Positions 12,200 to 28,367 of a stretch of DNA of 28,367 nt are shown one piece after another. The stretch is from the IMG/VR virus record IMGVR_UViG_3300020056_000122, positions 1 through 28,367 of that record, one strand, 5' to 3'. The stretch comes from a virus. A program made the position numbers and the translations under genes. The stretch's first letter is position 1. Each line of letters begins with the position of its first letter. A model generated the notes under the pieces. It saw nothing but the letters and a program-made list of their open reading frames with translations, was not told the origin of the DNA and made no database searches.

Positions 12200-12610
12200 T
12201 TATTTTATTGTTGAATAGGCTTCAAACCATTCAGGTGTTGAAATAATCTCGCTTATTACGCTTTTGTCATCGATATTGATTTGAATTAATCCACCTTGTT
12301 TTTGGATAGATTTCCAAAACTTCTTTAAGACTCCGATTTTTTTATATTGATTTTCATCAAATTCAAGAACTTCAATTCCAGTAATTTTTAAGACATCGGT
12401 CGGCCTAACAAAGGAATACATTCCAGATCCAACTGCATTTGTTTTTTCATCTCGACCCATTATTGTTCTTGAGTGAATAACTCCAAAATAGTTTAGTCTT
12501 ACAAGGTCTGCTGGTTGAAAGGTTTTAGCGTTTTTATATTTGTTTACAAAATCTTCTACCGACATATTTGCCTCGTTTACAAACTGTTCGAATAATTTTA
12601 CATGTTTCAT
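12200..12610 (-). CDS. Capsid-targeting-leader protein, unknown 136-aa
   Basis: The N terminus MKHVKLFEQFVNE|A matches the leader shared by nine other genes here and resembles the T4 capsid targeting sequence (MKTYQEFIAE|A) cut by the prohead protease after Glu. The mature part, about 123 residues, contains a small beta-rich segment (ADLVRLNYFGVIHSRTIMGR, then VRPTDVLKITGIEVLEFDEN) that might be an SH3-like or KOW-like fold. I do not recognise it. It is a lone cassette between gp45 and nrdA, bounded by two near-identical terminators and with its own candidate late promoter (12638-12647). That fits late expression and packaging into the head. Targeting is inferred from the leader only. Confidence 0.8.
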   Translation of the reverse strand: MKHVKLFEQFVNEANMSVEDFVNKYKNAKTFQPADLVRLNYFGVIHSRTIMGRDEKTNAVGSGMYSFVRPTDVLKITGIEVLEFDENQYKKIGVLKKFWKSIQKQGGLIQINIDDKSVISEIISTPEWFEAYSTIK

Positions 12611-18742: not shown

Positions 18743-19609
18743 TTATCTAAAGTCAGCTCTAACCTTAAACTTTCGGTCTTTAATAACATTATTCATCTCG
18801 TTAGAAAGGTAGGCTAAGATTTCCATCTGAGCATTCTTAGCAGCTTCATCAACAGAATCTTCGGCCATATATCTTGAAAAATCTTCCCAATTATTTGCAG
18901 TTTCTTTATACCAATCTTTAAACTCTTCAATTAGGTTCGTTGCTGGTACATCAAAACTCGGTAGTTCAATATATTCTTCATTGACTTTAGATTCATTAAC
19001 TGTAAGTTCGTATCTGTACTTAAATGCTTTATCTGCTGTAGACTTTGACATCGTTTTAGCTTTGATGCCCATCTTTTTAAGTTTAGCTTCAGTTTCTTTG
19101 CGATCGTAATTATCTTCAAATCTTAAAACTAATTGATTACCCCAGTTTTCACTTTCGACATACTCAACAGAGTTTGCACCTATGCCGTACGGATTGTCTT
19201 TATACTTATCTACAAGATCTTGAAATGTCATTGCCTCATTAACGATGCCCTCATTTACAAATGCTTCAAATGTTTTTAAATGTTTCATTTTTCTTTTCTT
19301 TTTTCTGTATTCTTCTTCAGCATCTCCTTGCCCTGCAGGAACATCACCAGAACCGTTCTCTGTAGATGTTGGAAGCTTGACCGGTCCGATTCCTCCGACG
19401 CTATCAATTGAGATATTTTCAACAACCTCTGGGAGGCCTTCGTGTTTTGTTTCTGCAAAACCTTTTAATTGTTTTAGAGTCATACCACTGGCAAGATCTT
19501 TTACTTTGTCTCTATAATCTACATCGACGTCCGAAATCTGCATATCGCCCTTTTTAACAGCGTATGCTACTCCCATTAATCTTTGCTGCGTTTTACTTTG
19601 ACTTGGCAT
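18743..19609 (-). CDS. DUF3008-like N-terminus joined to a capsid-targeting-leader protein
   Basis: A 288-residue frame with two unlike halves. Residues 1-62 (PSQSKTQQRLMGVAYAVKKG, then AETKHEGLPE) match a small phage and bacterial protein family of unknown function that starts P(S/A)KSKxQQRLMGMA. A Gly/Ser/Thr linker and a basic run (YRKKKRK) follow. Residue 108 then begins a full leader, MKHLKTFEAFVNE|G, trailed by IVNE|A. This internal ATG (19288) follows A-rich sequence like other starts here, so a 181-residue tagged protein may be made from it. The tagged part has a repeated-helix pattern with no known motif. Either a fusion of two genes or one gene with two starts is possible. A terminator (18690-18717) follows. 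Confidence 0.8.
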   Translation of the reverse strand: MPSQSKTQQRLMGVAYAVKKGDMQISDVDVDYRDKVKDLASGMTLKQLKGFAETKHEGLPEVVENISIDSVGGIGPVKLPTSTENGSGDVPAGQGDAEEEYRKKKRKMKHLKTFEAFVNEGIVNEAMTFQDLVDKYKDNPYGIGANSVEYVESENWGNQLVLRFEDNYDRKETEAKLKKMGIKAKTMSKSTADKAFKYRYELTVNESKVNEEYIELPSFDVPATNLIEEFKDWYKETANNWEDFSRYMAEDSVDEAAKNAQMEILAYLSNEMNNVIKDRKFKVRADFR

Positions 19610-19627: not shown

Positions 19628-19822
19628 TTAGAATTTTTGATATTTTGATGTAAAATCTATCATTTGGGGTCCCATTTTCCTAATAAAATCAATAGTTTGT
19701 TGAGATATATCTGAAGTGTTTTCTAAATAATCACAAGCTTCTTCAATTTCTTTCTTTAATGCTGATGTAGAGATTACCTTTGCTTCATTTACGAAATGTT
19801 CAAGTAATTTTACGTGTTTCAT
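19628..19822 (-). CDS. Small capsid-targeting-leader protein (64 aa)
   Basis: A 64-residue protein, of which the first 13 residues (MKHVKLLEHFVNE|A) are the shared leader. The remaining 51 or so form short amphipathic helices (TSALKKEIEEACDYLENTSD), with a basic end. After removal of the leader it would be a peptide of about 6 kDa, comparable with the small internal proteins of T4. No family recognised. It lies 18 bases before the 288-aa gene in the same unit, after the 792-aa gene. Confidence 0.78.
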   Translation of the reverse strand: MKHVKLLEHFVNEAKVISTSALKKEIEEACDYLENTSDISQQTIDFIRKMGPQMIDFTSKYQKF

Positions 19823-19843: not shown

Positions 19844-22222
19844 TTACCAAACGTAATCCATTTTTTTAATCTTAGAGATTCTGTCTTTAATTGACTTAGC
19901 GTAATTCTTTACTTCTCTTGAGTAGTATTTGCTAGGGTAACCTTCTTCTTCTTCACGCTTTGCTTGATTTGTATAGTCTACATATCTGTTAAAATCATCT
20001 AGAAGATTTTGCATTACGTTTGAAGCATCTCTTAGTTTAACCTCACGGCCTTTAGGATCCTTTCCGATGATAACATCTCCGTACTTTCCTTTTTCACCAG
20101 TAGCTAAACCATCTTTAATTTGAGAGGTAACTACATCAATTGCATTTAAGACTTCTTTATCGATAGGCATTTTAGCAGCTCTATCTGCTAGGATCATGTG
20201 GTATCTGTCAAGATTTTCTTTCTTAAAGTCTTTATCATTTTTAAACGAGATTGCTCCTTTTCTTGCAGTAGTTCTTTTAACACGCATTCCCTCGGTAGAA
20301 TATCTTGCTCTTAGAATGTCAAGATCAAGAACATATGCTCTATCAGCAAGTTCAGCTACTTTAGTAATACTTGAGATTCCAGATCCCCATGAGTCTCTAA
20401 CGTTACTTTTATTAAACCCAACAGCATCCTCTTTTCTAGATGTTGATAAGGTTTTCTCTCTTGATGCTCCAAATCTTCTAAGATATTCACTAGCAAGCCA
20501 TTCATTTTTTCCATTAGTTGCACCTAATAATGTGTTTGCAGGAATCACATATACACCCCAAGAGTCTTTACCTGCATATGGGTTCTTCTTTTCATTAGTT
20601 GTAAAATACAGGTAAACTGCATTATTTCTCTTTTCTTTTCTTGCATCAACTGGATCCATTTCGATAATATCTACATCTTGGATTTTATCAAGTTGAATCT
20701 TTGCCATATTGTAGAATACTTTAGCAAAATCTTTTTGCATAGAGCCTGCGCCCGTTAAGATTGACTGTAACTTCATTGATTGAAATGCTTCGGCAACCAT
20801 CTCTTCAGCTTCATTAACTGACTCTTTAATACCTAAGAATTCAGCAGCAGCTGATTTAAGTTCATCATAGGTGTATCTTCCTGTTAGTGCGTCGTCTAGA
20901 ATAGTTCCAGTCTTTCTACCTCCAGATGCATATAGCGATACGTGGTCAAAACCTAACCAGTCTCCACCTCCAAACTCATCCTTTGGATTCAAACCAAGAT
21001 CGGTTGAAAGTGTGAATGAAAGTGATTTTCTTCCTAAGAATTGGTCATTGTAACCTAATTTTCCAGCCTTTACATAGGCTGCTGGGTTTTCAGCTTCATT
21101 AACTGACTCTTTAATACCTAAGAATTCAGCAGCAGCTGATTTAAGTTCATCATAGGTGTATCTTCCTGTTAGTGCGTCGTCTAGAATAGTTCCAGTCTTT
21201 CTACCTCCAGATGCATATAGCGATACGTGGTCAAAACCTAACCAGTCTCCACCTCCAAACTCATGTTTAGGATTTAGACCTAAGTCTAATGAAAGTGCTT
21301 TAGAAAGAGATTGTCTTCTATCTAAAAACTGATCATTATAACCAAGTTTACCAGCGCTAGCATATTTATTCTCATTTAGCGATTCGATGAATTCACCAAA
21401 TGATTCATATACAAAATTATTTTTCATTTCTTTATTATTGTTTTTTGATTCAAATGTTCCTGTTGATGCTAGGTTGTAAAGGTGATCGGCAATCTTTTTA
21501 GCTTTTGAACCCTTATGTCCATAAGTTGCAACTGTTTCTTCAGCCTCTTTGGGCATCATCTCTGTTAATTCCCATGGGTCAAACTCATCCATTAAATCAT
21601 TTAAGATTTGTTTAGCCTCTTTTTCAAACCTATCGGCCTCGTGAAGTTGATCATCTTCTTCTTCGTCTTCAACGCCATCGCCGTCCTCATCATCGATTAC
21701 GCTAGCATCAAGGCCAGTTCCTCTTGGTACACCAATTGTATCTGCTAGAGCTCCTGTAAGTCCTGGAGCCAGCTTTTTAGCTAGGTTTGGAGCTTTTTCC
21801 TCTAACTCTTCTTCTAACTCTTCTGAGTTTTCTTTAATTGTAACTGGGAAAGTTTCTCCGTCAAACTCAAATTCTTCTTTACCTTCGTCTTTTGCTTTTT
21901 TAGCAGCAGCAACAAATGCTCTACCTTCTTCAATAACTGCAATCTGTGAAAGTGCTCTTTTTCCAAATGTAGAAAGCGAAATACCGTCTTCCGAAACGTT
22001 AAAGTATTTTGTGTTTCTTCTGATCCACTTTGAAGAGTCTTTAGAATATTCTTTTAAGATCGCATCAAATTCTTCCTGTGTAATTTTTCCATCGGCAATT
22101 GCTTCAAGCATTTTATTTCTAACGCTAGCGCTTTTTCCAACTTGTACCGCAGGATGATTTTCAGTGTATCTTCTCTTAAGGGTTATTTTACTTCCCTCGT
22201 TTAAAAAATCTTGAAAATTCAT
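19844..22222 (-). CDS. Large modular leader-tagged protein with internal tandem repeat (putative internal polyprotein)
   Basis: A 792-residue multi-part protein. It starts MNFQDFLNE|G, a short form of the leader. Residues 177-191 are a run of Asp/Glu with a DxDxDG calcium-loop look. A second leader-like unit starts near 266 (MKNNFVYESFGEFIESLNEN). Two copies of a domain of about 90 residues follow (290-378 and 386-473: AGKLGYNDQFL, GGGDWLGFDHVSLYASGGRK, ending IKESVNEAE). Each copy ends in the same protease-site-like IKESVNE|AE. The last 310 residues are a separate basic domain I do not recognise. The order suggests that a prohead protease could cut this into several mature pieces. No enzyme motif is visible. 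A candidate late promoter (22241-22257) precedes it. It is a real gene; the polyprotein idea is inference. Confidence 0.82.
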   Translation of the reverse strand: MNFQDFLNEGSKITLKRRYTENHPAVQVGKSASVRNKMLEAIADGKITQEEFDAILKEYSKDSSKWIRRNTKYFNVSEDGISLSTFGKRALSQIAVIEEGRAFVAAAKKAKDEGKEEFEFDGETFPVTIKENSEELEEELEEKAPNLAKKLAPGLTGALADTIGVPRGTGLDASVIDDEDGDGVEDEEEDDQLHEADRFEKEAKQILNDLMDEFDPWELTEMMPKEAEETVATYGHKGSKAKKIADHLYNLASTGTFESKNNNKEMKNNFVYESFGEFIESLNENKYASAGKLGYNDQFLDRRQSLSKALSLDLGLNPKHEFGGGDWLGFDHVSLYASGGRKTGTILDDALTGRYTYDELKSAAAEFLGIKESVNEAENPAAYVKAGKLGYNDQFLGRKSLSFTLSTDLGLNPKDEFGGGDWLGFDHVSLYASGGRKTGTILDDALTGRYTYDELKSAAAEFLGIKESVNEAEEMVAEAFQSMKLQSILTGAGSMQKDFAKVFYNMAKIQLDKIQDVDIIEMDPVDARKEKRNNAVYLYFTTNEKKNPYAGKDSWGVYVIPANTLLGATNGKNEWLASEYLRRFGASREKTLSTSRKEDAVGFNKSNVRDSWGSGISSITKVAELADRAYVLDLDILRARYSTEGMRVKRTTARKGAISFKNDKDFKKENLDRYHMILADRAAKMPIDKEVLNAIDVVTSQIKDGLATGEKGKYGDVIIGKDPKGREVKLRDASNVMQNLLDDFNRYVDYTNQAKREEEEGYPSKYYSREVKNYAKSIKDRISKIKKMDYVW
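20804..20979. repeat. Perfect direct repeat, copy 1 (176 bp)
   Basis: Identical base for base to 21089-21264 (offset 285 bases). It encodes the conserved part of the tandem domain from DEFGGGDW or HEFGGGDW to the IKESVNEAE linker. Sequence on either side, though from the same duplicated domain, differs at many positions, including silent ones. Confidence 0.97.
21089..21264. repeat. Perfect direct repeat, copy 2 (176 bp)
   Basis: Partner of 20804-20979. Perfect identity over 176 bases inside a domain whose remaining third has diverged points to recent gene conversion or unequal recombination between the tandem copies. Confidence 0.97.
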
Positions 22223-22240: not shown

Positions 22241-22257
22241 TTTTTTATATATCTTTC
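22241..22257 (-). promoter_or_regulatory. Candidate late promoter for the 792-aa gene
   Basis: The minus strand reads GAAAGATATATAAAAAA, about 19 bases before the ATG at 22222, overlapping the end of the upstream gene. It is one of the best matches to the recurrent element and fits late expression of an internal head protein. Confidence 0.5.
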
Positions 22258-23510
22258 TTAGTTAAGAACTGAGAAAACGTAAGAAGATTCGACTCATCGA
22301 TAGGACTCTCTTGCGTTTTTAACTTTTGATGGTTCAAATAAGTCTTAAAGGGCATTACGCTTGATTCGTTACTCTTTAACATAACAATTGCCTCAATTTT
22401 ATCGACAATTGTATTGATTTGCTCCATTAAGTCTGCATTTATAATATCAGTCTCTTTTGCTCTTCTCTTTCTAAATGAACCAATTGCAATCTTATATAGT
22501 TCTGAAAGAACCCTATTGTTTACGTATTCGATTGTCTTTTCGTTCTTGATAAATTTAGTATTTAATTCAAATTCAGGTCGATCACTAAAATCCGCAGAGT
22601 CAAAACTAACACCAACATATTTTGCTGCATTCTCATTAACATATGCGTTAAATGCATTTGAAATTAGTTCAATGTATCTCTCGTCTGCTTGGTCTGATTC
22701 AAGTTGAATATTATCAACATCATATTCAGAAAAGAACTCAACTAGGTCTAATAGTGAAATTTGATATGTGTCGCTTGGTTTTCTAGACTCACTAACCTCA
22801 GTTTTTGTTCCACTAAGTTTAAAGTTTTTTACCGTCTTGCCATCAAAGAAATTAATAACTAAAGAATCAATATCTCCGTCAAGATCTTCATTAAGAGCCG
22901 TCTTACTTAACGAATTATTAAAAATGTTATATGCTCTTCTGGTAAAACTTAACGCTTCATATGCTTGATTTCTTTCGGCATCACTCATTTCTAATAGTTT
23001 TACTAGCTCATCTTTCTGATGAGAACTCAATACTCCTTTAAAAACAACCTGTGGTCTTTGAACATCTAATTTATCTGCCCATTCAAAAAGAACCTTTGGG
23101 TCTCTAATAACCTTCTTTATTAGTGTATTGTCTAGAGGGTTCATTACCTGAATATGCGTTAAGATAAGCCCGTTCTTTGGTGTTTGATCGTATTTAATGT
23201 CAATTGTTTGACTGTCTGTCATGTAGTCAAAACCAAACTTCCAGTCAAGTGGCATTTCAGCCTTTGTCGCGTCATCAACCGATTCAAAATATTTAATTGC
23301 ATTCTCATAATATTTAGCGATTGTGCGATCTACTTTATCCAACGACTTCTTTTTACCACTCTTAAAATAGGTGTAACCAACTGAATTGTTTTGAACGTGA
23401 AACGAAGATGCCTGTACTTTTTCAGTAACAACACATGGAGACTTTAGCATCTCCATAAAATCTTCTCTATTCGTTGATTCAAAATATGTATGTAAGCTTT
23501 GTAGTGCCAT
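22245..23510 (-). CDS. Unknown 421-aa protein, possibly a divergent ligase-like nucleotidyltransferase, with a leader-like C terminus
   Basis: A 421-residue protein without the N-terminal leader. Residues 27-37 (VVTEKVQASSF) look like nucleotidyltransferase motif I (K31-x-Q-A in place of KxDG). WKFGFDYM could be motif III. IDSLVINFFDGKTVKNFKL, about 100 residues later, could be motifs IV and V of the ligase/capping-enzyme fold. The match is weak, and D and E residues at key points are missing, so this is tentative. Residues 280-400 are helical. The final residues, SNLLTFSQFLTKKDI, strongly resemble the leader of the neighbouring ligase-like gene (KLFTYEEFLTE), but at the C terminus. It sits between the 371-aa and 792-aa leader genes. 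Function unknown. Confidence 0.75.
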   Translation of the reverse strand: MALQSLHTYFESTNREDFMEMLKSPCVVTEKVQASSFHVQNNSVGYTYFKSGKKKSLDKVDRTIAKYYENAIKYFESVDDATKAEMPLDWKFGFDYMTDSQTIDIKYDQTPKNGLILTHIQVMNPLDNTLIKKVIRDPKVLFEWADKLDVQRPQVVFKGVLSSHQKDELVKLLEMSDAERNQAYEALSFTRRAYNIFNNSLSKTALNEDLDGDIDSLVINFFDGKTVKNFKLSGTKTEVSESRKPSDTYQISLLDLVEFFSEYDVDNIQLESDQADERYIELISNAFNAYVNENAAKYVGVSFDSADFSDRPEFELNTKFIKNEKTIEYVNNRVLSELYKIAIGSFRKRRAKETDIINADLMEQINTIVDKIEAIVMLKSNESSVMPFKTYLNHQKLKTQESPIDESNLLTFSQFLTKKDI

Positions 23511-23517
23511 AGTTTTA

Positions 23518-24633
23518 TTATTTAGCGATGTCTTCTGGTAGAGGCAGACCTGACATTCCTAGTTTAACTTCAAATTCTTTAAAGATCTCATCTCTCTTTT
23601 TAGGAAACTTAAACATTGATGAGTTAATTAAATCTCTTAAACTCTCATATGTCATTAAATCACTTACTTTTGCGCCATCGAAGAGAAGGTCTGCTATCTC
23701 TTCTGGTAGTCTTGTAATTTCTTTATCGAATTCTTTTAGTAACTTTGCGTTTTTAACCAATCCTCTCTTACCAACAAATGATTTACGAACCTTTACAACT
23801 CCTTGATTCAAGCGAATTACATATGCTTCGTACTCTTTTGTTTCTCCCTCTTCTGTTTGATCTATAATCTCAACAAATGATTTACCAATTGCTGACATTA
23901 GGAGGATGTTTCTATATGCACCTTTATATTTTGACTCGTCTTTTGTAAAGTCTGGAGAGTGGTACATAAATCTACTCCAATTAATATCTCTTGATAACAT
24001 TAGGTCGACTTGACCTACTCCATTATTTGATTTACCCTCAATAGGAGCAGCGATTGATACCTGCTGGAATCCTACAGCCATCGAGGTGTCTAACCCTTTT
24101 TCTTTCAATAAATCATTCATATCGAAAAGAACTTTAGCCAGTGAAGTGTCTAAGTGTCCTGCAATCTTATCGGCAGAAACAGCAATATCAATGTCTCCGC
24201 TAGTCTCTCCTGGATTCTTTTTTCCAGCGCTACCAATAACTGCAGCATCCTCTCCGATACCATCAATTCCTAAGTGTGGAAATACGTTTTTCTCGATCCA
24301 TTCTAGGGTTGCTGCAACTTCATGTTGTTCAAATGGTCTGGACTGTGCAATTGCATTACCACTTTCACTTACAAACTGTTCAAACGCAGCTGCAACATAT
24401 TTACGACCGTGTTTATTATGTAATATGTCTGAGATTAGACCTTCTTTGTCAAGCCCTTTAGGGTTACCAATTTTATAACTTAGCGACCACATCTTTCTTA
24501 ATTCAGCAGTTGACATCTTTTTAAGTTTTTTGTACTCTCTGCGGATTGATTCAGGATCCCTCTTTGAAGAAAAGTTTGATCGCGGAATCTTATCTTCACT
24601 TACAAACTGTTCAAATAATTTAACGTATCTCAT
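23518..24633 (-). CDS. Leader-tagged two-module protein with a pol-beta-type nucleotidyltransferase domain
   Basis: A 371-residue protein. The leader MRYVKLFEQFVSE|D (1-13) is followed by a basic helical module of about 75 residues, then a second copy of the leader core, FEQFVSE|S, at 84-90. The second module has the nucleotidyltransferase pattern: GSAGKKNPGETSGDIDIAV, with G134-S135 and D147-x-D149, and a third acid at D210 in GQVDLML. That is the DNA polymerase beta-like fold (CCA-adding, poly(A) and related enzymes). If the prohead protease cuts at both sites, it would free a small basic protein and a nucleotidyltransferase of about 280 residues inside the head. The substrate is unknown. 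Start chosen for the leader. Confidence 0.78.
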   Translation of the reverse strand: MRYVKLFEQFVSEDKIPRSNFSSKRDPESIRREYKKLKKMSTAELRKMWSLSYKIGNPKGLDKEGLISDILHNKHGRKYVAAAFEQFVSESGNAIAQSRPFEQHEVAATLEWIEKNVFPHLGIDGIGEDAAVIGSAGKKNPGETSGDIDIAVSADKIAGHLDTSLAKVLFDMNDLLKEKGLDTSMAVGFQQVSIAAPIEGKSNNGVGQVDLMLSRDINWSRFMYHSPDFTKDESKYKGAYRNILLMSAIGKSFVEIIDQTEEGETKEYEAYVIRLNQGVVKVRKSFVGKRGLVKNAKLLKEFDKEITRLPEEIADLLFDGAKVSDLMTYESLRDLINSSMFKFPKKRDEIFKEFEVKLGMSGLPLPEDIAK

Positions 24634-24641
24634 CTCTGTTT

Positions 24642-24995
24642 TTACTTATTATGATATTCTATTTGGTCTTTTAAAAATTCCTTAATTGTTGGAATTACAT
24701 CATCTTCAGAATTAATTTCATCAGCCCAGTTGTCATCACCAAAAACCTCTCCATTTCTAAAAAATCGAATAGATCCGTAATCACGATCATTATCTTTGTA
24801 TTTAGGTCCAGTCAGAATATAATCCATTCTATTTGGCAGAATTCCCTCTTTTTCAATAGTTGCCGGATACCCAGCCTTTTTAAGTATCTTAGCCACTTTT
24901 CTCAGGTTTAATTTTACACCTCTATCTCTTCCTACTTCTGTAGGCGTTATCGTGTATTCACCTATAAACTGCTCAAATAATTTAACGTATCTCAT
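24642..24995 (-). CDS. Capsid-targeting-leader protein, unknown 117-aa
   Basis: The leader is MRYVKLFEQFIGE|Y, differing at the cut site by a Tyr. The mature part (about 104 residues) is a small alpha/beta protein: a basic helix LRKVAKILKKAGYPATIEKE, then strands around YILTGPKYKD and SIRFFRNGEVFGDDNW, and an acidic C-terminal helix. I do not recognise a family. The ATG overlaps the stop of the adenylyltransferase-like gene by one base (TAATG), so it is in the same unit. Confidence 0.78.
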   Translation of the reverse strand: MRYVKLFEQFIGEYTITPTEVGRDRGVKLNLRKVAKILKKAGYPATIEKEGILPNRMDYILTGPKYKDNDRDYGSIRFFRNGEVFGDDNWADEINSEDDVIPTIKEFLKDQIEYHNK

Positions 24996-25591
24996 TATAT
25001 GTGTTTTCTTAATTTGTCATAGTATTTATAAAGATATTTCGGCACCATCTTTTCGAATGCTTCTCTATCATCATTTGCAAGTGCTTCTCTAGTCTTTGTA
25101 CCGCTAGGTCCTCCTTCTGCTCTTGCATCTACCATTTCTAGTTTAAAATCCGGATGTACAACCGTATCAGTCTTTGGTCCAGTAACATATTTAATCTGTG
25201 GTGTGTATGCCTTGATTCTGTCGCTTCCAGCACCTACACCAACAGTCTCATATCCTTGTTCTCTTAAGAATCTAACAAACCAAGGAATTACTGTTCTACC
25301 ATAGCTATTTGGGTAAATAAAGAAATCTGCGATCTCCTTCTCGTTCTTTGCAACCTCTTGTCCAATTTGAAGTAGAAGGCTTTCTGGGAATGGAGACTCT
25401 TCACGCTTTGAAACTATTTGCATTGCAACTACTGGCTTGCCAAAGATTTTAGCAGCATTTTTAAGTGCCGCGATATGACCATTGTGAAATGGCTGAAATC
25501 TTCCAGGCATTACAACAATTTCAGTACCCTCAATTGGTTGAGTTACATCAGCCTCGTTAATGAATTGTTCAAATAGTTTAATATGTTTCAT
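24995..25591 (-). CDS. Leader-tagged NMN adenylyltransferase-like nucleotidyltransferase
   Basis: A 198-residue protein: leader MKHIKLFEQFINE|A, about 10 linker residues, then a cytidylyltransferase-type Rossmann enzyme. The signature GRFQPFHNGH (30-39) supplies the HxGH ATP-binding site, and SGTKTREAL (163-171) is the C-terminal (S/T)xxxxR phosphate-binding motif. GRFQPFHxGH with this C-terminal motif is typical of nicotinamide-mononucleotide adenylyltransferases (NadM/NadR type), which make NAD+ from NMN and ATP. Pantetheine-phosphate or other adenylyltransferases are alternatives. Such genes occur in T4-like phages as part of NAD salvage, but a capsid leader on one is unusual. If delivered with the genome, it could act at once in the cell (inference). 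Confidence 0.78.
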   Translation of the reverse strand: MKHIKLFEQFINEADVTQPIEGTEIVVMPGRFQPFHNGHIAALKNAAKIFGKPVVAMQIVSKREESPFPESLLLQIGQEVAKNEKEIADFFIYPNSYGRTVIPWFVRFLREQGYETVGVGAGSDRIKAYTPQIKYVTGPKTDTVVHPDFKLEMVDARAEGGPSGTKTREALANDDREAFEKMVPKYLYKYYDKLRKHI

Positions 25592-25619
25592 AATTATATG
25601 TATTCTTTAATGTGTTTCA

Positions 25620-25979
25620 TTATTCCTTTATGAATCCCATCCAATTATCAGTAATACCTAAAACACCACTTCCACCGACCATCTTATCCCCAGCCTTCCA
25701 GTCCATGTAAGGTCTATTTGTGGAACGACCATCGCTGATATAGGTAAGTCCTAGGTCTTTCCCAGCTGCTTTAAGTTTAGCTCTATCTGCATAGCGAGTA
25801 TAGTTAACAAAAAGTTTTACTTCACCTCTGTGGTTAGCAGCTTTAGCTTTAGTAACAGAAGGAACTGCTTTCTTTAGCTTCTTTTCGTAGTCTGCTGCTT
25901 GTTTTAAGTTGATTCTCTTTTCAAAAAGATTTGATTTTGCTTCATTTACAAATTGTTCAAATAGTTTTACGTGTTTCAT
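25620..25979 (-). CDS. Capsid-targeting-leader protein, unknown basic 119-aa
   Basis: The leader is MKHVKLFEQFVNE|A, identical in protein sequence to that of the gene at 12200. The mature part of about 106 residues is strongly basic (many Lys and Arg: KQAADYEKKLKKAVPSVTKA, then ANHRGEVKLFVNYTRYADRA), with a small alpha/beta core and a Gly-rich C-terminal part. Basic internal proteins that bind DNA or core are usual for T4 (IPII, IPIII). No family recognised, and no catalytic motif seen. The 42-base leader coding sequence is nearly identical to that of the next gene. Confidence 0.8.
   Translation of the reverse strand: MKHVKLFEQFVNEAKSNLFEKRINLKQAADYEKKLKKAVPSVTKAKAANHRGEVKLFVNYTRYADRAKLKAAGKDLGLTYISDGRSTNRPYMDWKAGDKMVGGSGVLGITDNWMGFIKE
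25938..25979 (-). repeat. Dispersed leader-coding repeat, copy A
   Basis: These 42 bases code for MKHVKLFEQFVNEA and differ at only two positions from 26205-26246. More diverged copies begin the genes starting at 12610, 19822, 24633, 24995 and 25591, and occur internally near 19288 and 24382. Confidence 0.85.
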
Positions 25980-25997
25980 TTTGATGCTATATTTTAT

Positions 25998-26246
25998 TTA
26001 ATAACCAAACTCATAACCTAGAACGTTTTCAACATGTGATTCTAATTCTTCTCTAGTATCGCTTAGTTCATCTGAATTTGGATCTACTAGACCTTTATCC
26101 ATTAAATAGTCAATAAACATGTCCATGTCTTCTGCATCCCAAACATCTCTTCCTTTCATTGTTTTAGCCCACCATTTTTTAGCCTCTTTCTCGATTTTCT
26201 TATCGGCTTCATTTACAAATTGTTCAAATAGTTTTATGTGTTTCAT
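25998..26246 (-). CDS. Small capsid-targeting-leader protein (82 aa)
   Basis: An 82-residue protein with leader MKHIKLFEQFVNE|A and about 69 residues of mature, acidic, helical protein (KKIEKEAKKWWAKTMKGRDV, then EDMDMFIDYLMDKGLVDP, ending ENVLGYEFGY). It is much more acidic than the neighbour at 25620, so the pair could be complementary. No family recognised. It has an A-rich leader, and spacing to neighbours of 18 and 8 bases places it in the same transcription unit. Confidence 0.8.
   Translation of the reverse strand: MKHIKLFEQFVNEADKKIEKEAKKWWAKTMKGRDVWDAEDMDMFIDYLMDKGLVDPNSDELSDTREELESHVENVLGYEFGY
26205..26246 (-). repeat. Dispersed leader-coding repeat, copy B
   Basis: These 42 bases code for MKHIKLFEQFVNEA, with 40 of 42 identical to copy A at 25938-25979. 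Conservation at the DNA level as well as the protein level suggests copying or recombination among these leaders, not only selection on the peptide. Confidence 0.85.
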
Positions 26247-26254
26247 TTCTATCT

Positions 26255-27544
26255 TTATTTTTTGTACGCTAAGATACTTCTGATTTGATGGATTGGTGCA
26301 AAAATACCAGTGTACTTATAGACTTTACCTTTATAAACAAATGTAATACCTTCGGTAGGTACAATGTTCTCTAATCCTCCAACTGCTGCAACTCTACTTA
26401 ATTCATGTTCAAGTTTTTCAACATCTGTCGCATCTCCATTTTTTCTAATAGTATTAATAGCAGTCTCGATCTCTTTGCGCATCTGCTCTCCAGCATGTGT
26501 TGGGTTTGCGGATAAGAAAGCCTCCATGTGCTGCATCATCTCTGTACCAACCTCTAGGAAAAGATTTTCAAGAGGAGCATAGATTTGCTTCTTAATCATC
26601 TTTTCGTTCTTTTTCTCGAAATCACTATACTCTTTTGTTAAATCAGGACCCATGTCCTTTTTCATTTTGGCAACACTATATGATTTGTTGATCCCTCCAA
26701 GTCGATTAGCAATTCCTTCAATTGACTCTTCTGGAATATCCATGTCTAGGCCTCTAACGACGTTAACTGCTCTACCAACGACAAAATCCTGTACTGTTGA
26801 ATTTAAGTTAATACCTGCATCCTGCATGATACCTTTTAGTTTGTCATTATAATACTTTGCTCTCGCTTTGGTATTCTTAAATGGCTTGATAGGAATATCC
26901 TGAGGACCCCTAACATAAAACATCTCTTGTGCAGCAGCATTTGCATCGGCTATCATTTTACCAAGATCTCTACCAGCCTGCTTGTCTTCTCCAACTACGT
27001 TTCCATCAATGTCGTATTCTACAATACCATGAAATACTAGCATGTCTTGACCATAAGGAACAGTGTTCTGTGTTACAGGAGTCATAATCTCGACGCTTGC
27101 GAATTTTGTACCTTCACCAAACATCTTTTCTTTATCACCAGGAGAAAGGGCTCCAATTGAAGCATTTAGATCGCGCATTGCTGTGTTGTATGCAATTTCA
27201 ATATCTCCTCTGTCTTTAAATTTTGCAGCAACATCGGCTGCTGTCATTGCGTTTTCACCAGCATTCTTAAGATGACTCTTATTTCTTGCAGCGATTAGTT
27301 GACCATTCTTCCATGAAATTGAAAGCTGCTGGCCGTCAGTTTTTTCTTGGACGAAGTTTTCTGGACCAAATGCTCCTTGAACTGTAGCATCAATCATATC
27401 TTTTACATCCGTCATTGTTAAACCTAAGTCTTCAAACGGGTGAGTAAGGTGACCATATGCTCCACCTTCAAATAACGGTTCGAGGTCAGTATTTCTGACC
27501 TCTCTTTCCGTTAAAAATTCTTCGTATGTAAATAGTTTATTCAT
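26255..27544 (-). CDS. Leader-tagged ligase-like covalent nucleotidyltransferase (KxDG motif)
   Basis: A 429-residue protein starting MNKLFTYEEFLTE|R, close to the T4 capsid leader. Residues 67-71 are EKTDG, the motif I of ATP-dependent DNA/RNA ligases and capping enzymes (K68 would be adenylated), with RNKSHL as motif Ia. FASVEIM (E152) fits motif III, EGITFV (398-403) motif IV, and KVYKYTG (K407, K410) motif V, near the C terminus. Motifs III and IV are about 245 residues apart, much more than in T4 DNA or RNA ligases, and the intervening part is helical. No OB-fold domain remains after motif V. DNA or RNA ligase, or another nucleotidyltransferase, cannot be told apart here. The ATG directly follows the upstream stop codon. 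Confidence 0.68.
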   Translation of the reverse strand: MNKLFTYEEFLTEREVRNTDLEPLFEGGAYGHLTHPFEDLGLTMTDVKDMIDATVQGAFGPENFVQEKTDGQQLSISWKNGQLIAARNKSHLKNAGENAMTAADVAAKFKDRGDIEIAYNTAMRDLNASIGALSPGDKEKMFGEGTKFASVEIMTPVTQNTVPYGQDMLVFHGIVEYDIDGNVVGEDKQAGRDLGKMIADANAAAQEMFYVRGPQDIPIKPFKNTKARAKYYNDKLKGIMQDAGINLNSTVQDFVVGRAVNVVRGLDMDIPEESIEGIANRLGGINKSYSVAKMKKDMGPDLTKEYSDFEKKNEKMIKKQIYAPLENLFLEVGTEMMQHMEAFLSANPTHAGEQMRKEIETAINTIRKNGDATDVEKLEHELSRVAAVGGLENIVPTEGITFVYKGKVYKYTGIFAPIHQIRSILAYKK

Positions 27545-28367
27545 TTATCCTAATGAAGATTGTAAGGCTCCTACCATTGCACCATAATCTCCGTTATGTT
27601 TTGAAATTAAACCATCGACTATTTCTTGTGCTTTTTCTTCGTCAAATTTATCTCCGAATGCTTTTTGAAGTACTGCAAAAGCATATTCTTTGAAGTCATC
27701 ATCTGATTTTACTTCAGCTTCAGTAACTACTGATTCTTTAAATTGCTCAATATCTTTATATTTGATTTCAAACTCTTCACCGTCTGGATCAAGTGCGTAG
27801 ATATAATCATCGGCAGCCCACATCTCAGTGTTTTCATCGTTACCATTATCTGGATTATAGATGATGTACCACTTTCCATTAACTAGGATTTCGGCGTCAT
27901 CGTGATTCTTGATTAACTTTAAAAGCTTCTTCTTATCGTATTTAGCTTCGGTAACTACTGATTCTTTAATATCAAATGAATGAACTCCTCCACCTGACAT
28001 AATACTACTCCATTTAACGTGCGTTAGCTCTACTTCTGGATATAGCATCTTTACTTGAGCGATTACATAGTCTGGATTTACTCTATATGCGTATCTAACC
28101 TCTAGTTTTTTCTTATTAAGTTTTACAACCTTTGGTGGTGTATTACCATTATGTGCTATGCTAAGTTGATATTGTACATCGCTCTTATTTAGACCTTCGC
28201 TTACTTCAACAGCCGCTGATTCCATTGGCTCAAACATTTTAACCATCATTTCAAAGTCTTTCCTAAAATAACTTCTTAGGTAACCTCTAACCGCATCGTC
28301 AATTAAACCATCTCTATCTCTTTTGTATTCTGGCCAATCATCCCAGTGCCAATCAACTGCATTTTCA
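27545..28367 (-). CDS. Modular protein with repeated KESVVTEA linkers (partial, runs off the right edge)
   Basis: The frame is open from the TAA at 27545 to the end of the window (about 273 residues). The ATG at 28249 is internal: upstream codons read WHWDDWPEYKRDRDGLIDDA and on into MMVKMFEP without a stop. Three segments are separated by near-identical linkers. IKESVVTEA lies near 27944-27970 and FKESVVTEA near 27716-27742, both followed by a charged start (KYDKK, EVKSD). EVSEG farther upstream may be another. The linkers resemble IKESVNEAE in the 792-aa protein and have the (hydrophobic)-x-E|A form of prohead protease sites. The middle segment is a small beta domain (DAEILVNGKWYIIYNPDNGN), the last is helical. 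Function unknown; an internal head polyprotein is the working idea. Confidence 0.72.
   Translation of the reverse strand, partial: ENAVDWHWDDWPEYKRDRDGLIDDAVRGYLRSYFRKDFEMMVKMFEPMESAAVEVSEGLNKSDVQYQLSIAHNGNTPPKVVKLNKKKLEVRYAYRVNPDYVIAQVKMLYPEVELTHVKWSSIMSGGGVHSFDIKESVVTEAKYDKKKLLKLIKNHDDAEILVNGKWYIIYNPDNGNDENTEMWAADDYIYALDPDGEEFEIKYKDIEQFKESVVTEAEVKSDDDFKEYAFAVLQKAFGDKFDEEKAQEIVDGLISKHNGDYGAMVGALQSSLG

Follow-up and report, generated by a model that had tools for sequence, protein, structure and literature searches.

We analyzed a 28,367-nucleotide contig of an uncultured virus, a marine T4-like phage (IMG/VR record IMGVR_UViG_3300020056_000122, positions 1 to 28,367; hereafter the window), focusing on genes whose products begin with a short leader resembling the capsid targeting sequence of T4 internal proteins. 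Our reading, to which we assign a probability of roughly 0.8, is that these genes encode precursor polyproteins of capsid cargo that would be cut at [V/I/L]-x-E by an S77 prohead protease. Cleavage itself, the packaging of every product, injection, function and the route of gene fusion are inferred, as follows. The N-terminal leader would carry the entire chain into the core of the prohead; the S77 protease would then cut after the Glu of each [V/I/L]-x-E, both at the leader and between folded modules, and one packaged chain would yield several small mature proteins, which would most likely exit the head with the DNA at infection. The polyprotein genes would arise by fusion of neighboring leader genes, with the downstream leader at first intact and later without its targeting aromatics, only the processing residues being left. 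An initial annotation of the window had proposed capsid polyproteins, and our sequence comparisons support this proposal: at the sites, relatives show a single leader, no leader, or other modules, and the S77 protease is present in relatives.

The 371-amino-acid (aa) protein (23518..24633, minus strand) is predicted to be a capsid-targeted precursor with a leader (residues 1-13), a 77-residue module (14-90), and a polymerase beta (pol-beta)-type nucleotidyltransferase (NTase; 91-371). FEQFVSE, reported by the initial annotation to occur twice in this protein, is indeed found at residues 7-13 and 84-90. The leader pattern predicts a cut after E13 (MRYVKLFEQFVSE↓D, with arrows marking predicted cuts; codon 24595..24597, minus strand), and an internal cut is predicted after E90 (AAAFEQFVSE↓SGNAIAQ; 24364..24366, minus strand), the position at which the free-standing NTase of relatives starts. 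We compared the window with about 100 related viral contigs (numbered with L or G). About 16 relatives encode the NTase as a protein of about 294 aa whose one leader ends directly at E↓SGNA, and leaderless homologs begin at the residue matching E90↓S91 (MSGMAIKG in a Lak phage, MGGAAFKD in Phosso, and MGGNAIQE in L076). All 17 NTase homologs with upstream sequence carry [VIL]xE immediately before the domain. The 77-residue module stands between the leader and E90↓S91 in the window and in L007; the same junction holds a different module in L010, two modules that each end in a site in L011, and others again in L072 and L074, the units inserted by relatives being 70-80 aa long and differing in sequence. 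Because relatives show a single leader, no leader, or other modules at this position, we consider the E90 site to be the beginning of a free-standing domain. In the structure model, the predicted local distance difference test score (pLDDT) falls below 50 only at residues 1-24, 78-92, and 289-299. Since the first two stretches cover E13 and E90, both sites appear to lie in low-confidence linkers flanking two folded units, the larger of which matches pol-beta-type polymerases and terminal transferases. Together with the domain boundaries in relatives, these linkers bear out the earlier suggestion that the sites sit between separate domains.

The 792-aa precursor (19844..22222, minus strand) lies outside the span given in the initial annotation (23518-28367), which nevertheless included it in the proposal. 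It consists of a leader, a KRRYTE domain, a GRAFVAA module, an ADRFEKEA module, two AGKLGYNDQ repeats, and a conserved C-terminal domain of about 310 aa; all its codons given here are on the minus strand. The leader would be cut after E9 (MNFQDFLNE↓G; 22196..22198). A second leader-like unit had been noticed near residue 266, and we find it complete, with an in-frame Met, at residues 266-284 (M266-KNNFVYESFGEFIESLNE↓N, ending at E284; 21371..21373). Likewise, the two previously described IKESVNE↓AE linkers end at E376 (IKESVNE↓AENPAAYVKAGKLGYNDQ; 21095..21097) and E471 (IKESVNE↓AEEMVAE; 20810..20812). Using relatives to define domain starts, we located three more candidate sites: E99 (VIEE↓GRAFVAA; 21926..21928), E195 (DDQLHE↓ADRFEKEA; 21638..21640), and E478 (MVAE↓AFQSMKL; 20789..20791), the last at the start of the C-terminal domain. 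E precedes the GRAFVAA module in 20 of 20 copies, the ADRFEKEA module follows DESFVNE↓ in L007, and [VIL]xE stands before the C-terminal domain in 28 of 28 homologs. The KRRYTE domain is found as a free-standing leader protein of 110-116 aa in L055-L062, and the repeat unit after E376 has a free-standing counterpart in L083, a leader protein of 109 aa. The C-terminal domain is present in 79 contigs, preceded by a leader alone in L120 (a 349-aa protein) and elsewhere by up to several modules in varying order.

Structure prediction, which had been proposed as a check on the sites, was less clear for this protein. Sites 9, 284, 376, and 471 fall in segments with pLDDT below 50, and 195 and 478 at the edge of such a segment, placing six of the seven sites where linkers would be expected, with E99 predicted inside a helix; because about one third of all residues belong to low-confidence segments, the model gives mild support only. 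Comparison of the model with folds in the PDB returned no convincing match, though local confidence is good within the C-terminal domain. We could not fit short free-standing proteins into a multiple alignment with the 792-aa protein and omitted them from the structure alignment.

The N-terminal leader has the consensus M-K/R-x-x-K-L-F-E-Q-F-V/I-x-E and is carried by nine window proteins in a register that matches T4 IPIII (MKTYQEFIAE). Past residue 25, the strict pattern ES[VIL]NE[AGS] occurs 17 times (25 non-redundant loci); shuffled sequences gave 0.00 and control patterns 0-1. All of the matches fall in a leader-bearing protein or polyprotein. Broader site patterns, scored on single or whole contigs, are enriched only about 2-5-fold, which is weak and not decisive. 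An unselected breakpoint test suffered from noise caused by fragmented alignments, contig edges, and collagen-like fibers, and we replaced it with a leader-end alignment test, in which a free-standing leader protein is aligned inside a longer protein and its leader end defines the domain start without selection. [VILMF]xE is found within 3 residues of 131 of the 189 internal positions defined in this way, compared with 28.3 expected from nearby positions, although these counts are not phylogenetically independent. For eight domain families anchored on their own domain sequence, E precedes 106 of 107 starts (background 8%), and the exception is a false positive of the search pattern. Overall, many leader proteins contain 1-7 additional site motifs at domain boundaries.

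The right-edge gene (27545..28366, minus strand) has lost its 5' end at the contig edge, leaving the 3' part of a predicted polyprotein whose orthologs are 467-736 aa long. The sites IKESVVTE↓A and FKESVVTE↓A, both annotated earlier, were recovered at E140 (in open-frame numbering; DIKESVVTE↓AKYD; 27947..27949, minus strand) and at E216 (QFKESVVTE↓AEVKSDDDFKEYA; 27719..27721, minus strand), where the conserved C-terminal domain starts. An additional site at E54 (EPMESAAVE↓VSEG; 28205..28207, minus strand) marks the position at which L009 has an extra module inserted. Orthologs of 467, 649, 678, and 736 aa have gained or lost modules at ES-type sites, and a 227-aa protein in L043 consists of just the end domains, with a short middle part between them. 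Searched with tblastn, neither the 792-aa nor the right-edge protein matched any named phage. The 288-aa protein (18743..19609, minus strand) also contains sites beyond those annotated, with a DUF3008 domain followed by an internal full leader (MKHLKTFEAFVNE↓) and then more modules. In L069, a 541-aa chain has a site every 50-75 residues, and its 315-aa ortholog in L068 lacks some of the modules exactly between sites.

Related arrangements were also seen elsewhere. A 295-aa protein remote from the main cluster (L024:15462-16349, corresponding to G003:135462-136349) carries a leader that departs slightly from the usual form (MKHIKLYEDFINN) and contains five or more candidate ES[VI]xE sites. Leader-like tails are located at protein ends in the window (22245-23510), L011:12259-12627, and L012:5233-5592 (LLTFSQFLTKKDI; MKHVKTFESFLADSK; MKHLQTFESFIADFK) and are possibly a C-terminal capsid-targeting signal. 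The window DUF3008 protein runs on beyond the position of such a tail, via FVNE↓, into more modules.

The window encodes a T4-type portal, and the contig end falls inside the portal gene; it also carries genes that we take, from reading their sequences, to encode a recombinase, a clamp, a polymerase, and a ribonucleotide reductase. Two relatives, the near-identical G001 and the 166-kb G003, encode an S77 prohead protease of the gp21 family with a scaffold-like tail fused to it, adjacent to a T4-like major capsid protein and the portal. Besides these two, Pfam S77 prohead protease is found in 16 of 18 further contigs longer than 100 kb that carry these genes, and it is absent from all 14 control genomes. 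The S77 protease is always a frame of 600-830 aa, with a second, short copy in one contig. Its long, repetitive, scaffold-like C-terminal part contains candidate cut sites (SVAE, SINE) in L020:3482-5410 (G003:43482-45410) and in other contigs. The portal-protease-capsid cluster of G003 is located at about 40-48 kb and its polyprotein genes at about 66-77 kb, about 20 kb apart. Since the nearest named capsid proteins are those of a 462-kb uncultured phage, Lak phages, and Tenacibaculum phages, the capsid relatives suggest that the host of the window phage belongs to the Bacteroidota.

Several points weigh against the polyprotein reading. The anchors of the eight domain families were picked after the sites had been seen, a bias from which the leader-end test is free, and the counts per family lack phylogenetic independence. 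Noise was greater in the unselected breakpoint test, which placed 96 of 842 breakpoints at sites versus 31.6 expected. The model of the 792-aa protein is weak (mean pLDDT 61), with E99 within a predicted helix, and the protease gene lies outside the window, whose contig ends inside the portal gene. Finally, M266 of the 792-aa protein and M108 of the 288-aa protein are in-frame Met residues behind A-rich DNA. Because of this upstream DNA, translation could start at M266 and M108, and some downstream products, which would carry leaders of their own, might come from internal starts and not from cutting of the chain. Both residues open full leader-like units behind DNA resembling ordinary gene starts, a Met ahead of the C-terminal domain recurs among many homologs, and internal starts are annotated in T4 genes 17 and 21. 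We nevertheless consider this explanation unlikely. Internal starts account only for Met-bearing units, whereas the ES[VIL]xE sites and E90 of the 371-aa protein have no leader-like Met, and internal initiation would be compatible with cutting of the long form as well.

The sites could instead be fusion scars, with loss of stop codons having fused single-leader genes and old leaders persisting as uncleaved linkers in packaged multidomain proteins. Gene fusion is probably the origin of these genes; the internal site of the 371-aa protein (RKYVAAAFEQFVSE) resembles a worn MRYVKLFEQFVSE, and the A-rich, intergenic-like DNA before MKNNFVYESF is read as a Lys/Asn-rich linker. However, a neutral scar would lose all residues equally, whereas the internal sites are depleted selectively: P7 and P4 are aromatic in 70% and 66% of N-terminal sites versus 14% and 4% of internal sites, while P3, mostly hydrophobic (V/I/L), and the Glu at P1 are kept at both. 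T4 IPIII starts with MKTYQEFIAE↓A, in which residues 4, 7, 8, and 10 correspond to P7, P4, P3, and P1. Mutational work on IPIII has shown that residues 4 and 7 act mainly in targeting and that residues 8 and 10 are needed for processing (PMC9026906). The internal sites look like processing-only copies of the leader, a natural separation of targeting from processing residues that agrees with the T4 mutants. The loss of targeting residues and retention of processing residues is the strongest argument that the sites are kept for cutting and are not scars. In addition, many internal sites are of the ES[VIL]xE type and not worn leaders, and we regard scars as a very unlikely explanation.

A role of the modules as disposable prohead-core peptides, in which the chains would act as scaffold and be cleared by cutting in the manner of T4 gp22, gp67, and gp68 and of giant-phage propeptides, is similarly improbable to our minds. 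Repeated cutting of core proteins and propeptides is established (PMC9026906, PMC5694885, PMC10052503), and many modules are small and have no assigned function. However, several modules are recognizable enzymes (a pol-beta-fold NTase and a cytidylyl/adenylyltransferase), many also occur as free-standing leader genes, and the polyprotein genes are about 20 kb away from the portal-protease-capsid cluster. Single modules could still be lost from the head as disposable core peptides. A chance origin of the sites and their derivation from an unrelated linker-repeat family were both rejected on the strict-motif controls and the leader-end alignment test.

Single-leader proteins are also encoded in the window, all on the minus strand. 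They include a 64-aa protein (19628..19822), a 117-aa protein (MRYVKLFEQFIGE↓Y; 24642..24995), a 198-aa cytidylyl/adenylyltransferase-like enzyme (24995..25591), proteins of 119 aa (25620..25979) and 82 aa (25998..26246), a 429-aa protein with a ligase-like KTDG motif (MNKLFTYEEFLTE↓R; 26255..27544), and, outside the cluster, a 136-aa protein (12200..12610). In L077, a module stands between the leader and the homolog of the 198-aa enzyme, and in L083 and others the homologs of the window 421-aa and 198-aa proteins are joined in one chain at SPITE↓AL. The 429-aa and 421-aa families matched no solved structure by sequence. A 429-aa homolog (L043:8995-10734, plus strand) has an apparent mini-intein inside the KTDG motif (starting with Cys and ending with His-Asn, then Thr), a position that supports KTDG as the active-site motif of a nucleotidyl-transferring, ligase-like enzyme. 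Enzymes of nucleotidyl-transfer type in the window (22245-27544) are the pol-beta NTase, the cytidylyl/adenylyltransferase, the KTDG protein, and a protein with EKVQASSF, which resembles RNA ligase motif I. Three of these four carry capsid leaders, and the cluster may encode a nucleic-acid repair set packaged with the DNA. The same enzymes are joined in differing orders in other phages: the 421-aa homolog is fused to a cytidylyltransferase in the 462-kb uncultured phage, and the KTDG protein is fused to a cytidylyltransferase in Microcystis phage Mel-JY01 (L047:15949-17910 and L045:5290-7209).

Phage cargo is usually viewed as one leader, one protein. We lean toward a broader view, in which widespread T4-like phages load and deliver effector sets as modular polyproteins: one capsid-targeting tag would be followed by interchangeable modules, each after a processing-only leader and freed in the head by the prohead protease, and injected proteins could be added or swapped by fusion without extra tags. 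If true, this would explain the rapid change of injected proteins and fix the stoichiometry of co-delivered products. In a leader-bearing chain, each stretch flanked by [VIL]xE sites would become a candidate mature cargo readable from sequence, and phage delivery tools would gain a route to loading several proteins behind one tag.

Parts of this arrangement are known already, namely leaders on small cargo, scaffold proteins and propeptides that are cut several times, and injected polyvalent proteins with multiple domains. What appears new is that folded cargo modules are interchangeable and follow a single leader, with prohead-protease-type sites at the junctions; we found no direct precedent in the literature searched for phage polyproteins cut by a prohead protease, most subscription papers being outside that search. 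T4 IPI, IPII, IPIII, and Alt similarly carry a short leader at the N terminus; it ends in hydrophobic-x-E, occurs on many small proteins that are unrelated to one another, and is cut by an S77-type protease, with IPII and IPIII both beginning MKTYQEFIAE↓A. The leader and an S77 protease of the same phage (seen in relatives) are shared with this class, but not its single domain per precursor: T4 internal proteins contain one mature domain and one leader cut, whereas up to seven internal sites are predicted here between modules behind one leader. The annotators' remark that T4 internal proteins are mostly cut once near the N terminus holds with exceptions, as Alt is also cut at its C terminus. 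Several prohead-protease cuts per chain are made in T4 gp22, gp67, and gp68 and in SPN3US and phiKZ propeptides, whereas the sites here are predicted only. Fragments of those core proteins and propeptides mostly leave the head, whereas the sites described here lie between folded domains that include enzymes and have free-standing counterparts among the cargo genes. T4 scaffold and core proteins are encoded in the portal-protease-capsid cluster, and the polyprotein genes of G003 are not.

Polyvalent proteins of phages and conjugative elements (Iyer et al. 2017) contain domains that include pol-beta NTases and were likened by the authors to RNA-virus polyproteins (PMC5512222). As in the chains described here, several unrelated domains share one polypeptide and injection with the DNA is predicted; our examples are the NTase with its varying modules, the architecture of the 792-aa protein, and the ligase-like and cytidylyltransferase fusions. 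Processing of polyvalent proteins has been ascribed to embedded peptidases, mainly zincin-like (about 36%) (PMC5512222). In contrast to such chains with their own peptidase, no peptidase family is among the Pfam, PHROGs, and NCBIfam matches of the window proteins, and the junction sites match a separate prohead protease. The likeness to RNA-virus polyproteins is an operational analogy only, in that one precursor would give several products through short repeated cut sites between folded units. Homology is lacking, and, unlike in RNA viruses, the products would be carried in the virion of a DNA phage, and the protease comes from a gene located elsewhere.

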